Below, piece by piece: positions 8,547 through 48,864 of a stretch of 50,899 nt of DNA. Below the pieces are notes generated by a model. The model saw only the letters and a program-made list of their open reading frames with translations, had not been told where the DNA came from and made no database searches. The stretch's first letter is position 1; every line of letters starts with the position of its first letter. A program made the position numbers and the translations under genes. Where the stretch lies: assembly GCA_947304135.1 (NCBI GenBank), contig CAMYZZ010000001.1, forward strand, positions 88,872 through 139,770, given 5' to 3'. The stretch is from an uncultured Candidatus Saccharibacteria bacterium. GTDB lineage: Bacteria; Patescibacteriota; Saccharimonadia; Saccharimonadales; Saccharimonadaceae.

Positions 8547-8586
8547 ACTCTAATTTTACAACAGAAAATACAAAAAATCAAAAACC

Positions 8587-9666
8587 TTATGATTTGAAAA
8601 GACCGAGGTGTTTTTTGCCGTCATAGATGGCGGTTGGGATGCCTTTTGGCTTGATTTTTTCTGTGATAATCTGAGCGTCGGTGAGGAGCTGCTGCTCGAC
8701 GGTCTCAGAATAGGTCTCGGTCTTAATATTCTCTAGAGCGCTGCCGGTGATACCCCAGCCGATGAGCCAACTATCTATGAGCGCAGTGGCTTGGTCGCGG
8801 CCAAGATTATTATTGAAGACAGATTGGTAAATTACACCTTCGGTGTCATACTCTGCGAAGATACGGTTGAGAATCTTTTTGGAGACTGGAGCAGAATCGT
8901 CGCCAATAGTTATATCACTAGTAGCTAGCAGGTAGCGTGTGACGAGCTCGGAATTTTGGAAGCGGTATTCCCCGCTCGGGTTTTTGATTGGGTAGGCGAC
9001 AAAATAGACTGTGTGTTTGTTTAGAAATTCTGTATTGTCTAAAATATTTTTGTAGGACTGGAGGCAGACGGAGCAGCCTGGGTCAATAATTTCTAGAGCA
9101 ATATCGCTGCCGGTGCCTACGGTGAAGATTGGGGTGAGCTTGCCAGAGGTAGAGGCAGAATCGGCGCTAGTTGGGTCCGTATCGACATAGTCGGCGGCGT
9201 TCCAGGTCCTTACACGATCTGGGATGTTGCTAAAAATCTCGCCCCATTCGGTAAACCAGTTGAGGTTGTTTTCGTCTATGCTGCAAGACTCAGCACCAAG
9301 CGCACAGTTGCTTGGCTGAGAAACGTTACAGGTGCCAAACACCCAGAGTGCAAAGCCGGCTTTGACGGCCTCAATGATAGACCATGCGGTCAAAACAACA
9401 AGTAGAACTGAGGCGATTTCTATGCTGATGGAAAGCGGTTTGACTAACTTTGGTTTTTTGATAATAACTTTTTTGAGCAGGGCGGTTTTGACGTCGTCGG
9501 AAAAATTGGTGTCGCATTTTTGAAGACGGATACGCTTGCCAAAACAGTGGAAAGATTTTTTGAGAGCGGCAAGGTATTTGCGACCAAAGTCGCGATTGAA
9601 AATGGAGATAAAGATGGCGGCAACGCCAACAAGTACTAAAATAATAAATGCAGCTATACAAACCAT
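8587..9666 (-). CDS. Membrane-anchored thioredoxin-fold (DsbA-like) protein
   Basis: A 359-aa protein with a helix at residues ~1-22 and another around 82-110 (SIEIASVLLVVLTAWSIIEA...). A short Cys-rich loop follows (CNVSQPSNC...ESC, 113-128). Then comes a thioredoxin-like domain: LEIIDPGCSVC with CxxC at 198-201, a long helical insertion (210-330), and GIPTAIYDGKKHLG near the C-terminus, which supplies the cis-proline before a strand as in DsbA/DsbD-type folds. It probably oxidises or isomerises disulfides in exported proteins; several neighbours have paired cysteines. TATAAT sits 6 nt before the ATG (leaderless). No VKOR or DsbB partner is visible in the window, although the N-terminal helices plus Cys loop could play a redox-coupling part (speculative). 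Confidence 0.75.
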   Translation of the reverse strand: MVCIAAFIILVLVGVAAIFISIFNRDFGRKYLAALKKSFHCFGKRIRLQKCDTNFSDDVKTALLKKVIIKKPKLVKPLSISIEIASVLLVVLTAWSIIEAVKAGFALWVFGTCNVSQPSNCALGAESCSIDENNLNWFTEWGEIFSNIPDRVRTWNAADYVDTDPTSADSASTSGKLTPIFTVGTGSDIALEIIDPGCSVCLQSYKNILDNTEFLNKHTVYFVAYPIKNPSGEYRFQNSELVTRYLLATSDITIGDDSAPVSKKILNRIFAEYDTEGVIYQSVFNNNLGRDQATALIDSWLIGWGITGSALENIKTETYSETVEQQLLTDAQIITEKIKPKGIPTAIYDGKKHLGLFKS

Positions 9667-46423: not shown

Positions 46424-46516
46424 TGGCGGAGGGAGGGAGATTCGAACTCCCGCTCCAGGTTTCCCCAGACTAACGATTTAGCAAACCGTCCCCTTCAGCC
46501 ACTTGGGTATCCCTCC
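46424..46516 (-). tRNA. tRNA-Ser (GCU anticodon), CCA encoded
   Basis: A 93-nt class II tRNA: acceptor GGAGGGA pairs with TCCCTCC, anticodon stem ACGGT/ATCGT around TTGCTAA (anticodon GCT), a long variable arm as in tRNA-Ser, T arm GGGAG-TTCGAAT-CTCCC, discriminator G and encoded CCA. A TATAAT lies ~10 nt upstream. It reads AGC/AGU codons. Confidence 0.95.
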
Positions 46517-46604
46517 AATGGCTCTTATTATAACACGAGTCGGAACAGATTGAAAGAGGAAGTAAAGACAAAAAAGAGGGGACCTATGCCCCTCCGAGTG
46601 TATA

Positions 46605-47348
46605 TTATAAGTTGATTATAGTTGTTTTTGATAATAGTGATGGCTTGTATTGAAGTTGTAGATTGCCTCCACCGGCAGGAATTTCAAAAATCATAAAACC
46701 TGACCACTTGCCGTTTCCTGCAAGCTCAATGGACTCGTAAAAGCCATTATCAATCATCATTGTTGTTGAGTAACTGATGTCTCTAATTACACCATCCCCA
46801 TCTTGGAGTTGCCAGTTAGACGGATAAAAAGTTTTCTTAGAAGTTGTAGTATTTACGAATCCTACGCCAATTTTAATGAATTCTTTTCCTTCTTCTGGTT
46901 TGTCAAACATATTTCCTGTTGAAAAATTCCTTTCGACATTAGAGATGGTGACTTTGCTGTCTTTTAGTTCAATAGTGTCGCCAACTTTATATCCTTCAGA
47001 ACTATTGGACTGAGAAGCGTCCGATGACTTGTCTTCTGATTGATTTGTAGGCTGCTCGGTGGATGATTGATTATTATCTGCTTGTGAAGATGACTGGTCG
47101 GTTGGAGCAGAGCTGTTTTTGTCACCTTCGTTTTTATCCGTAAGGCCACCTGAAGCAATTACTCCAATGGCGCCAAGTGTAAAAATTGCGATTATGACCC
47201 AGAACCACCATTTTTTGTAGATTGGTTCGGTAGTTTTTTGAGGTTTTTCCGTAGATACTTTTTCTGTTGCGTCATCGTTGCTAGTTTGAGTTGGGACGCT
47301 TTGGTTAGTGGTGCTCGCTATGTCCTTTTGGTTTTTGCCGCTTGGCAT
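46605..47348 (-). CDS. Membrane-anchored DUF4352-type (telokin-like) protein
   Basis: A 247-aa protein: Ser/Thr/Gln-rich cytoplasmic lead (~45 residues), one helix (KKWWFWVIIAIFTLGAIGVIASGG), a low-complexity Ser/Gln/Asn/Asp linker (~75-125), then a ~120-residue beta-sandwich: YKVGDTIELKDSKVTISNVERNF, EGKEFIKIGVGFVNTT, FYPSNWQLQDGDG, and the closing WSGFMIFEIPAGGGNLQLQYKP, matching DUF4352 (PF11611). Such proteins are exported ligand-binding or immunoprotective domains. I start at the ATG at 47348, with AAAGGAG 9 nt upstream. A ~180-nt structured leader precedes it (see 47402-47529). Confidence 0.85.
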   Translation of the reverse strand: MPSGKNQKDIASTTNQSVPTQTSNDDATEKVSTEKPQKTTEPIYKKWWFWVIIAIFTLGAIGVIASGGLTDKNEGDKNSSAPTDQSSSQADNNQSSTEQPTNQSEDKSSDASQSNSSEGYKVGDTIELKDSKVTISNVERNFSTGNMFDKPEEGKEFIKIGVGFVNTTTSKKTFYPSNWQLQDGDGVIRDISYSTTMMIDNGFYESIELAGNGKWSGFMIFEIPAGGGNLQLQYKPSLLSKTTIINL

Positions 47349-47529
47349 TTTAAGATCTCCTTTGGGCTCTTTGATATACCTGCCAGTCCTAGAGAACCCA
47401 ATAGGCACTCGCAGTGGTGTATCAAGACCATTTTCACAAACTAAAACCGTTGGCTTAGCCTGTTAGCGAGTGCCTAATTAGAGGGCTAAACTCGCCGATT
47501 TTAGTTAATAAAAATAGTCTTGATACACT
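47349..47529 (-). ncRNA. Candidate structured 5' leader with pseudoknot potential
   Basis: Minus-strand RNA order: B' GTGTATCAAGAC (47529-47518), C' AACTAAAATCGGCGAGTTTAGCC (47506-47484 region), A' TAGGCACTCGC (47475-47465), C GGCTAAGCC...TTTTAGTT (47460-47438 region), B GTCTTGATACAC (47427-47416), A GCGAGTGCCTA (47412-47402). B'/B pair perfectly over 12 bp (17 of 18 if extended), A'/A perfectly over 11, C'/C imperfectly. Since A' is in the loop closed by C'/C and B'/B and A is just outside, A'/A would make a pseudoknot. A further TTGGGTTCT/AGAGCCCAA hairpin runs up to the AAAGGAG of the DUF4352 gene. Confidence 0.6.
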
Positions 47530-47560
47530 TTTAGTATATCATAGTTTGCTTATGGTAAGA

Positions 47561-47962
47561 TTATTTAAGCTCTTTGGCGGAGGGGAGTTGGGCGGCAAGT
47601 TTTTTGTCAAAAGTGAGAAGGGGTTCGGCGGATTTTTCCTCGGCCATTAGTGCGAGGTAGCAATCGTTGATAGAAAGCTTTGGATGTTCGTAGTATAATT
47701 TGGCGATACGTTCAAAAAGCTTGCGGTCTACAGAGACGTTTTCTATACTACAAAGAAAATTGATATCGCGGGCGATATCAAGGCGCTCTTTGCCGTAGCA
47801 GGCTTCTAGGACGTGAGCCATCTCGAGAATGGCAGCGTCTTCTATAATGAAGGTTTGGTCTTCATTAGATAATAGTTCTACGACTTTTTTGTATTGAGAT
47901 GGCATGTCACCAGAAAAAAGGCGGATAAAAATGTTGGTATCGAGAGAGGAAGTATTAGGCAT
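47561..47962 (-). CDS. PIN-domain toxin (VapC-like ribonuclease)
   Basis: A 133-aa PIN-domain protein, the toxin of a type II toxin-antitoxin pair that cleaves RNA. Acidic active-site residues: SSLDTNIFIRLF (Asp at ~8), EDAAILEMAHVLE (Glu), SINDCYLALMAEE (Asp at ~101) and LLTFDKKLA (Asp at ~120). Length is typical. It overlaps the antitoxin gene by 8 nt, downstream of it, the usual order for these pairs. The partner carries an AbrB-type rather than VapB-type fold domain. Confidence 0.9.
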   Translation of the reverse strand: MPNTSSLDTNIFIRLFSGDMPSQYKKVVELLSNEDQTFIIEDAAILEMAHVLEACYGKERLDIARDINFLCSIENVSVDRKLFERIAKLYYEHPKLSINDCYLALMAEEKSAEPLLTFDKKLAAQLPSAKELK

Positions 47963-48281
47963 TTTTCACTCCGTATTTTTCGGCGTAATACCTTTTCCCT
48001 TCTTTGGAATTATCCCAATCAGCGCGTATTTCTGAGACGGACATGCCAGAATATTTTTTGGAGAATTTTTTAAGGTTATTTTTGGTGGTTTTTGAGTAGG
48101 AATTATGCAAAGCTTCGAGACGTTCGGACAAAGTGGCTTGGCGTTTTAAAGTAAGAGCTTTGGTTTTTTCGTCATAAGTATAAACCAAGCGGTCACCAGA
48201 GCCCACCTCAAGGAGCTGTTGTAAAGCCTTAGGTAAGGTGATTTGGCTGGCGCGGGTGAGAGTTGTTGTATAGGTTGTCAT
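47955..48281 (-). CDS. AbrB/SpoVT-type antitoxin
   Basis: A 108-aa antitoxin. The N-terminal ~48 residues form a swapped-hairpin AbrB DNA-binding domain (TTLTRASQITLPKALQQLLEVGSGDRLVY), and the remaining 60 residues (YSGMSVSEIRADWDNSKEGKRYYAEKYG) should wrap around the PIN toxin. It is expressed from a TTGACA-17-TAGACT promoter 6 nt before its ATG, overlapped by repeated operator-like sequences, consistent with autoregulation by the toxin-antitoxin complex. Confidence 0.88.
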   Translation of the reverse strand: MTTYTTTLTRASQITLPKALQQLLEVGSGDRLVYTYDEKTKALTLKRQATLSERLEALHNSYSKTTKNNLKKFSKKYSGMSVSEIRADWDNSKEGKRYYAEKYGVKNA

Positions 48282-48287
48282 ACATTG

Positions 48288-48361
48288 AGTCTATCATACT
48301 TCATTGAAAATGTCAATAACTCATTGAAAAAATGATAGTATTGGCTGTTTCAATGAAAAGA
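48288..48361 (-). promoter_or_regulatory. Toxin-antitoxin promoter with operator-like repeats
   Basis: Minus-strand TTGACA (48316-48311), 17-nt spacer and TAGACT (48293-48288) end 6 nt before the antitoxin ATG, a leaderless layout. The decamer TCATTGAAAA (plus strand) occurs at 48301-48310, inside the promoter spacer, and at 48321-48330, exactly 20 bp apart (two DNA turns); a palindromic variant TTTCAATGAAA is at 48349-48359. Binding there would block RNA polymerase. Confidence 0.75.
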
Positions 48362-48399
48362 AAAAATTAGGAAAAATGAAAGTGTGGTAAAATAAGGTT

Positions 48400-48864
48400 A
48401 TGGATAAGACAAAAGATATTTCTTGGGAAGCGGAGGAATATATTCCGCACGAGAAAAATATGGGGTGGTATATTGGTCTAGTGATTGTGGGCCTAGCGCT
48501 TTCGGCGCTTGGGGTCTGGCTCAAACAGTGGAGTTTTGTAGTTTTGGTTGTTGTCTCGGTGTTTGCGCTCATCGTCTATTCTGTGCGTCCACCACGCAAG
48601 GTAAAATATGCCTTGATTAATAAAGGACTAAAAGACGGAAATAAGACCCGTAATTTTGAAGAGTTTAAATCGTTTGGCGTGATCAATGACAATGGTCATT
48701 ATGCGATTGTGCTTACCCCTAGAAAGAGGTTTTCGCCAAGGACTTGGGTGTATTTCCCTGAGACTCAGGGTGAGCAGATTGTGGATGCATTTGGGATGAG
48801 ACTTCCGATGGAAGAAGTTAAGCGTGACATAATCGATAAAATTGTGAGAACGCTTAGGATTTAG
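48400..48864 (+). CDS. Two-helix membrane protein with a PH-like cytoplasmic domain
   Basis: A 154-aa protein: short hydrophilic lead (SWEAEEYIPHEKN), two helices (YIGLVIVGLALSALGVWL; FVVLVVVSVFALIVYSV), a basic turn RPPRK, then ~85 residues with a beta-rich PH-like pattern (VKYALINKGL, FEEFKSFGVINDNGHYAIVLTPRKRFSPRTWVYFP) and a C-terminal helix (EEVKRDIIDKIVRTL). Similar bacterial proteins have no defined role. TAAAAT lies exactly 6 nt before the ATG, giving a leaderless mRNA; the gene diverges from the toxin-antitoxin operon across its operator. Confidence 0.78.
   Translation: MDKTKDISWEAEEYIPHEKNMGWYIGLVIVGLALSALGVWLKQWSFVVLVVVSVFALIVYSVRPPRKVKYALINKGLKDGNKTRNFEEFKSFGVINDNGHYAIVLTPRKRFSPRTWVYFPETQGEQIVDAFGMRLPMEEVKRDIIDKIVRTLRI

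Follow-up and report, generated by a model that had tools for sequence, protein, structure and literature searches.

The stretch at positions 47349-47529 of the window (the whole piece of 50,899 nucleotides analysed here, from an uncultured Candidatus Saccharibacteria bacterium) belongs, as a divergent copy, to a folded leader RNA that is strongly conserved but undescribed in Saccharibacteria, tiny bacteria that live on other bacteria. In the window it would form the 5' leader, i.e. the first ~140 nt, of the mRNA of a DUF4352 gene. The best explanation, to which we assign a probability of roughly 55%, is a family of cis-acting leader RNAs, largely of mobile islands, that acts as a terminator/antiterminator switch. 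The family matters because a complex leader has been kept by compensatory change across at least 20 genera, ahead of exchangeable genes, and is absent from Rfam. The host-dependent life of Saccharibacteria must be regulated with very few genes, and the leader provides a concrete target.

The leader copy in the window

The features of the window copy are collected in Table 1. The outer 12 bp of helix P1 are formed by GTGTATCAAGAC (47517-47528) and GTCTTGATACAC (47417-47428), which pair perfectly on the minus strand; in a repeat search, the P1 and P2 region appears as a single 33-nt inverted-repeat arm with 85% complementarity. P1 is crossed by the pairing of strands A and A' (11 bp, 100% paired in the window), with the helix order P1-A-P1'-A'. 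The interlocking complementary segments that the preliminary description of this DNA had read as a pseudoknot are hereby confirmed, and its fourth hairpin, adjoining the ribosome-binding site of the DUF4352-type gene, is present as hairpin III. Beyond that description, the fold contains a helix P4, which holds the 5' strand of the pseudoknot in its loop.

Such an arrangement is rare: Markov shuffles lead one to expect 0.025 interlocks of exact helices of at least 10 bp each per strand, or 0.05 for the two strands of the window together, and the sole interlock of this size in the window is the P1/pseudoknot of the leader. The predicted minus-strand fold of the leader reaches -79 kcal/mol (z = -8.2), and none of 200 shuffles folded equally well. 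The -10 hexamer TATACT ends at 47533 and P1 extends from 47528, with 4 nt between them; the transcript start is predicted at 47526-47528, within P1. This prediction, together with the strong covariation among homologues described below, supports the earlier proposal of a new structured RNA leader. The earlier impression that no known riboswitch can be recognised here agrees with Rfam 15, which yielded, at the gathering cut-off, two tRNAs only in the whole window, nothing but a chance lncRNA match in the leader even at E<=10, and tRNAs only in 26 homologous loci. Another interlocked pair in the window, at 8580-8724 with 9/9 bp, was rejected: it has no -10 box at its start, occurs at chance rate and is apparently coding.

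Table 1. Features of the leader copy and its neighbourhood in the window
Feature	Position	Strand	Remarks
Extended -10 promoter element TGATATACT	47533..47541	-	TG 47540-47541, TATACT 47533-47538; read from sequence
P1, 5' arm	47508..47528	-	outer 12 bp perfect, 21 bp in total; covaries in homologues
P1, 3' arm	47417..47437	-	complementarity search, predicted fold
P2, 5' arm	47496..47506	-	11 bp; covaries in homologues
P2, 3' arm	47439..47449	-	pairs with 47496-47506
P4, 5' arm GTTTAGCC	47484..47491	-	read from sequence; covaries in homologues
P4, 3' arm GGCTAAGC	47453..47460	-	read from sequence
Pseudoknot strand A TAGGCACTCGC	47466..47476	-	within P4 loop; covaries in homologues
Pseudoknot strand A' = IIb GCGAGTGCCTA	47402..47412	-	4 nt 3' of P1; duplex -24.7 kcal/mol
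Hairpin II remnant CACT GCG AGTG	47406..47416	-	4 bp, no U-tract; -1.3 kcal/mol
Hairpin III	47362..47401	-	47391-47401 with 47362-47370; adjoins Shine-Dalgarno sequence
Shine-Dalgarno sequence AGGAG	47357..47361	-	read from sequence
DUF4352 gene, single-pass membrane protein	46605..47348	-	behind leader; PF11611 E=1.8e-17
vapC-like (PIN) and AbrB/MazE-like antitoxin genes, VapBC-type pair	47561..48281	-	upstream of leader promoter; not in RNA
tRNA-Ser(GCT), island boundary	46424..46516	-	just 3' of DUF4352 gene

Evidence for a folded RNA

Thirty leaders were aligned with MAFFT without structure information (alignment A2). P1 (12 bp), P2, P3, P4 and the pseudoknot account for 48 pairs in this alignment, and 91.3% of the cells are paired. 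Changes on both sides occur in 30 of the pairs and in 190 cells, against 59 expected from shuffles; the covariation score of 0.419, which none of 500 shuffled alignments reached, compares with 0.203 in the shuffles and with at most 0.109 when the strands are slid. RNAalifold recovers P1 and P4 unaided. The pseudoknot persists in a second alignment of 65 order-wide members (A5), in which it is 90% paired and covaries with a score of 0.280, versus at most 0.153 for slid strands; the conserved letters GGGCAC and RCAGU flank strand A. Judged from these alignments, P1, P2, P4 and the pseudoknot keep their pairing through compensatory changes across homologues. The excess of G-U over A-C cells (130 to 30) is an indication that the sense strand of the leader acts as RNA.

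Other candidates for the conserved stretch were discarded. A conserved short ORF inside the leader (MKFRTLHSE...) does not keep its ATG in L027 and L028. A self-cleaving ribozyme finds no Rfam match and no fit to the HDV-like topology, and for a type III antitoxin no tandem repeats were seen in the leader.

Members of the family and their distribution

The leader's own DNA is without detectable relatives in 174 same-genus genomes; the family was found via the upstream DNA of DUF4352 homologues, which are present in 15 of 170 genomes of the genus. Upstream of several of them the same topology recurs in different letters, directly after a -10 box. The strands of L009 (GTTCAAGATATGCG / TGGGCTAGTGTT / CGTATATCTTGAAC / AACACTAGCCCA), L011 (GTCAAATATACA / AATGGGTTAATGTTT / TGTATATTTGAC / AAACATTAGCCCATT) and L013 (GTCTACACTAAACAATCA / AACGGCAACCGTT / TGATTGTTTGGTGTAGAC / AACGGTTGTCGTT) were judged members by eye, and the broader model R2 (see below) gives them no score. 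The type represented by L005/L006 (GTTCGAAGT / GTGGAGCACTCGCT / ACTTCGAAC / AGCGAGTGTTCCAC) is abundant: it occurs before unrelated genes in 38 of 170 genomes of the genus at E<=0.1, the weakest of these matches being chance, with up to three copies each. The DUF4352 homologues L007, L008, L010 and L012 have no leader upstream, and the DUF4352 gene is therefore not the leader's defining partner. The linkage to this gene implied by the preliminary description needs correction: the leader is not bound to it, but heads about 47 unrelated groups of genes.

A covariance-model search of Saccharibacteria, as the preliminary description had suggested, brought to light homologous leaders with pairs kept by compensatory changes. 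Model R1, built without the pseudoknot from 30 same-genus leaders and with the window left out, recovers the window leader at 47392-47524 on the minus strand (24.1 bits, E=0.0014), the runner-up in the 50.9 kb scoring 11.8 bits. Applied to 394 genomes of the bacterial family, R1 gave 35 matches in the genus and four in other genera; each of the latter immediately follows TATAAT and, in different letters, retains P1, P2 and the A/A' pairing. With the broader model R2, the training of which included the window and these four leaders, leaders were found in 47 of 393 genomes of the order, distributed over 20 genera and 4 families, the placement of members from other genera resting on kinship labels. 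Among 315 genomes of the phylum, R2 gave one real match outside the order, L152. R1 and R2 contain no information on the -10 box or on the pseudoknot pairing, both of which therefore serve as independent checks on the matches. Two weak antisense matches of the models inside known leaders are mirror images of the helices.

Among the named members in the window's genus, Candidatus Saccharibacteria MAGs from the gut of goat, sheep, yak and roe deer predominate. Searches for the leader in viral contigs (three exact patterns) and in phages and plasmids (blastn) gave no matches. A contig filed under Bacilli (L168) carries a near-typical leader (149.6 bits) and aligns in several stretches with Saccharibacteria contigs; it is probably mis-binned.

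Promoter spacing and downstream genes

A TAnnnT hexamer lies 4-8 nt before the leader in all 77 tested copies, and in 71 of them the spacing is 6 or 7 nt, against a background for both spacings of 4.8% of positions. By its position the leader RNA should be the very start (+1) of its mRNAs. Of 73 leaders, 72 have an ORF behind them on the same strand, at a median distance of 40 nt (minimum 13 nt). The proteins encoded there are unrelated and fall into 47 groups among 72: DUF4352 proteins stand behind the leader five times, a 75-aa TM2-like protein (TM2 being our own reading, with no Pfam match) nine times in several genera, and many others are orphan membrane proteins. Single cases include methyltransferases, HSDR_N, PD-(D/E)XK nucleases, YbjQ, a P-type ATPase, an epimerase and a serine recombinase.

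Of 14 loci with the TM2-like gene, from several genera, 11 retain the leader: ten score well for it, and L184, which the model misses, shows it clearly in the sequence. Outside the window's genus, the partner that most often accompanies the leader is an orphan protein of 75-80 aa (MKDRKTYKILT...NRWYLGNAKG) with no Pfam match, found at L102:1708-1932, L119, L120, L121, L123, L124, L125, L129 and L132. At L179 (1700-1830), the 5' half of the leader is lost and a terminator-like hairpin with U-tract is kept before the 75-aa gene.

A putative terminator/antiterminator switch

In most members, a local hairpin (II) can form just 3' of P1 between IIa (ACACC/ACACTC) and IIb (GGTGT/GAGTGT), and its 3' arm, IIb, is the same strand that pairs with A. 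A terminator-like hairpin II with at least 5 T of 8 is found in 30 of 31 leaders of other genera and in 27 of 34 of the window's genus. Tracts of at least 7 T of 8 occur in 88% of the leaders of other genera (1% in the background) and tracts of at least 6 T of 8 in 67% of those of the window's genus (6% in the background), where the U-tract is weaker and starts 3-5 nt after the hairpin. Strand A often extends as GAAAAGGG; as this is complementary to CCCUUUUU, the U-tract would also be taken into the pseudoknot. The predicted energy of hairpin II is -1.3 kcal/mol in the window, compared with medians of -9 to -11 kcal/mol in relatives; the hairpin is nearly absent in the window and absent in L152. 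Its own covariation, 0.151 versus 0.105 in shuffled alignments, does not clearly exceed that of slid controls, which reach up to 0.172.

According to the switch that we propose, the leader RNA would start at +1 with P1 and enclose P2, P3 and P4, with strand A presented in the P4 loop. A would then pair with IIb just 3' of P1, closing a pseudoknot of 7-17 bp; alternatively, IIb would pair with IIa to form hairpin II, followed by the U-rich tract as in an intrinsic terminator. By taking up IIb and often the U-tract, the pseudoknot would act as antiterminator, so that transcription would read through when the pseudoknot is formed and stop when hairpin II is formed. The P1-P4 domain would sense some condition (a ligand, a protein or the speed at which RNA polymerase moves) and thereby determine the choice of fold, and the leader would control whatever gene is behind it: in most cases one for a membrane or orphan protein, in a few a restriction or defence gene. 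The two pairings, the strand they share and the U-tract are features of the sequences; from these we infer that II terminates, that A prevents termination and that a signal shifts the balance.

As the predicted stability of the pseudoknot far exceeds that of hairpin II, the switch would need kinetic control or a signal, and read-through may be the default state. In the window copy, hairpin II has only 4 bp and no U-tract while the pseudoknot remains; with its decayed terminator-like hairpin and longer P1/P2, this copy probably reads through, and formation of its pseudoknot may require part of the long P1/P2 stack to open. Several points weigh against the switch. The U-tract is perhaps kept only through its pairing with strand A, and the shared strand is the 3' arm of the terminator, whereas most known antiterminators take the 5' arm. 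Hairpins that cover the ribosome-binding site in many copies would suit translational control equally well.

Association with mobile islands

Of 87 leaders, 32 have a large serine recombinase (PF07508) within 10 kb, versus 3.8 expected, the expectation assuming uniform placement and three of the 87 leaders having been found through the 75-aa gene. A pair of genomes illustrates the association: G032 and G073 (L153, L166) share the same locus, 89% identical through the leader, and differ by the presence or absence of a ~620-bp DUF4352 gene precisely at the 3' edge of the leader, which is identical in the two. At the end of the locus, a gene for a large serine recombinase runs into a tRNA-Asp gene.

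The similarity among copies of one genome does not exceed that to copies of other genomes, and in genomes with several copies the best match of nearly every copy lies in another genome. Because the copies stand at +1, are not more alike within genomes and keep their pairs by compensatory changes, the leader is, on these comparisons, not a mobile repeat in itself, but often rides on serine-recombinase islands. The preliminary description had held that the sequence would be a mobile repeat if it were scattered without linkage to the DUF4352 gene; it is indeed scattered before unrelated genes, but the copies are not mobile repeats themselves. In the window's own genome DNA similarity revealed no second copy, the only other match being the leader's own inverted repeat, and in 174 same-genus genomes it recovered the window leader only; the 12-bp termini are therefore not the ends of a dispersed repeat.

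The window leader lies between tRNA-Ser(GCT) and a core gene at 48400, and this interval (46424-48400) varies among relatives from 85 bp (L211) to ~1 kb of other DNA. It is a variable island site in the genus, with other content or another tRNA orientation in some relatives. The corresponding site of G040 contains a leader, a DUF4352 gene and a recombinase, and the window leader shares with it homologous promoter letters, a homologous gene and the locus. As a PF07508 search of the window's genome, the assembly of which is incomplete, gave no match, the window site looks like an island that no longer has its recombinase.

Alternative explanations

The main rival of the switch is a cis-acting leader that controls translation, in which the pseudoknot and the 3' extension would set hairpin III and so mask or expose the Shine-Dalgarno sequence, whether or not a ligand takes part. 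A hairpin that adjoins or covers the ribosome-binding site is seen in the window and in L026, L027, L042, L053, L060, L099, L102 and L109, the window copy has no terminator, and the U-tract is weak in the window's genus. We nevertheless regard this explanation as unlikely, since hairpin III is not found in all copies, has no common sequence and is seen by reading only, and since the U-tract of other genera would be left unexplained. The hairpin at the ribosome-binding site pointed out in the preliminary description is common among the copies, but lies outside the conserved core. Translational control may also coexist with a transcriptional switch. Quite improbable is a passive 5' stabiliser, with P1 at +1 and the pseudoknot shielding the mRNA from RNase attack at its 5' end and no switch involved: all copies have a helix at +1, the letters vary while the pairing stays, and unrelated genes are served, yet a simple hairpin would suffice for this purpose, with no need for P2-P4, for the letters GGGCAC and RCAGU conserved around strand A or for a shared strand IIb.

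The two remaining explanations appear highly improbable to us, and to the same degree. An independent small RNA gene that acts in trans and leaves the downstream gene a bystander would account for the leader's own promoter and for the terminator-like 3' end ~145 nt downstream in most genera, but hardly for the same-strand ORF behind the leader (72 of 73; median distance 40 nt, minimum 13 nt), or for the leader being kept with the TM2-like gene in 11 of 14 loci of several genera. A small palindromic mobile element (MITE/REP-like) or a folded recombination site, either of them without a role as RNA, would fit the dispersal before unrelated genes and near recombinases, as well as the cargo gene that is present or absent exactly at the 3' edge of the leader (G073 vs G032). 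MITE and REP elements should, however, form several similar copies that are more alike within than between genomes, which is not what we found: the window's genome has one copy, copies are not more alike within genomes, the -10 spacing is fixed in 77 of 77 copies, and G-U exceeds A-C 130 to 30. The idea that the perfect 12-bp termini mark such an element, offered as an alternative in the preliminary description, is contradicted by the single copy in its own genome, the +1 position and the compensatory changes.

Comparison with known RNA elements

The kind of element to which the switch would belong is already known: a cis-acting leader with terminator and pseudoknot. Riboswitches and attenuators of the terminator/antiterminator type have mutually exclusive terminator and antiterminator pairings. 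Like the present leader they are 5' leaders at +1 with a complex conserved fold, and have, upstream of genes, a terminator-like hairpin and U-tract that share a strand with an alternative helix; this attenuator anatomy is found in the family, but not in the window copy. The leader differs in its unrelated genes, which belong to no common pathway (47 groups among 72) as those of a riboswitch would, in sharing the 3' arm, and in lacking an Rfam riboswitch match.

The HMP-PP (thiS motif) riboswitch has a much smaller structure than the leader. Its aptamer is reported to be embedded in the terminator (PMC6478431). In both elements a conserved fold shares a strand with a terminator or terminator-like hairpin; compared by description only, the leader differs in its genes and has no Rfam match. 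HK022 put and Bacillus EAR are cis-acting RNA antiterminators that work processively on distant terminators. They resemble the leader as structured RNAs at or near the transcript start in a phage or operon context, and the leader, like them, could act on RNA polymerase; it has, however, no sequence or Rfam match to them, and its terminator-like hairpin lies inside the element. In attC sites of integrons, which are used by a tyrosine recombinase, structure is conserved beyond sequence next to exchangeable genes. The leader likewise conserves structure more than sequence and adjoins exchangeable genes, but it stands 5' of the genes with its own promoter at fixed spacing, and the recombinases linked to it are of the serine type; by eye, no attC boxes were noticed at its ends.

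As judged from Rfam and the open-access literature, what appears to be new is the leader family itself, together with its distribution across the order and its association with exchangeable cargo. Open-access full-text searches combining Saccharibacteria with pseudoknot or with noncoding RNA/riboswitch, and candidate phyla radiation with structured RNA, found no report, and neither was a report of regulatory RNAs native to Saccharibacteria found in this literature. A single paper on Patescibacteria was found to mention riboswitches, and only as a wished-for tool (PMC11665869). Since some Saccharibacteria are now genetically tractable (PMC11665869), the effect of the leader on transcription is directly testable. 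If the leader senses something, it would be a native inducible switch, a type of tool that these bacteria lack (PMC11665869), and it would show how new island cargo comes under control on arrival. It is conceivable, although rather doubtful, that a leader which senses a ligand or an infection moves through Saccharibacteria together with large serine recombinases and gates swapped-in cargo including anti-phage genes; if so, a leader RNA of mobile islands would be a general control slot for exchanged genes.

Defence-related genes near leaders

A defence regulon was considered and rejected: R-M or PADLOC candidates make up only a few of the 70 first genes, and defence is a theme of some islands only. 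The DUF4352 protein of the window (46608-47348) matches PHROG superinfection-exclusion families (phrog_4980, E=8e-9), mainly with its N-terminal membrane part, and matches phrog_806 over its length. A reading as superinfection-exclusion protein is not relied on, the PHROG matches lying mainly in the N-terminal membrane/low-complexity part. On G242 (L191:10400-15806), a leader heads a same-strand run of genes that includes Lamassu-like LmuA and LmuB. On G250 (L190:7590-10099), a reverse transcriptase (RVT_1) adjoins a DUF4238 protein between the leader-controlled gene and a second serine recombinase; it is possibly a defence reverse transcriptase.
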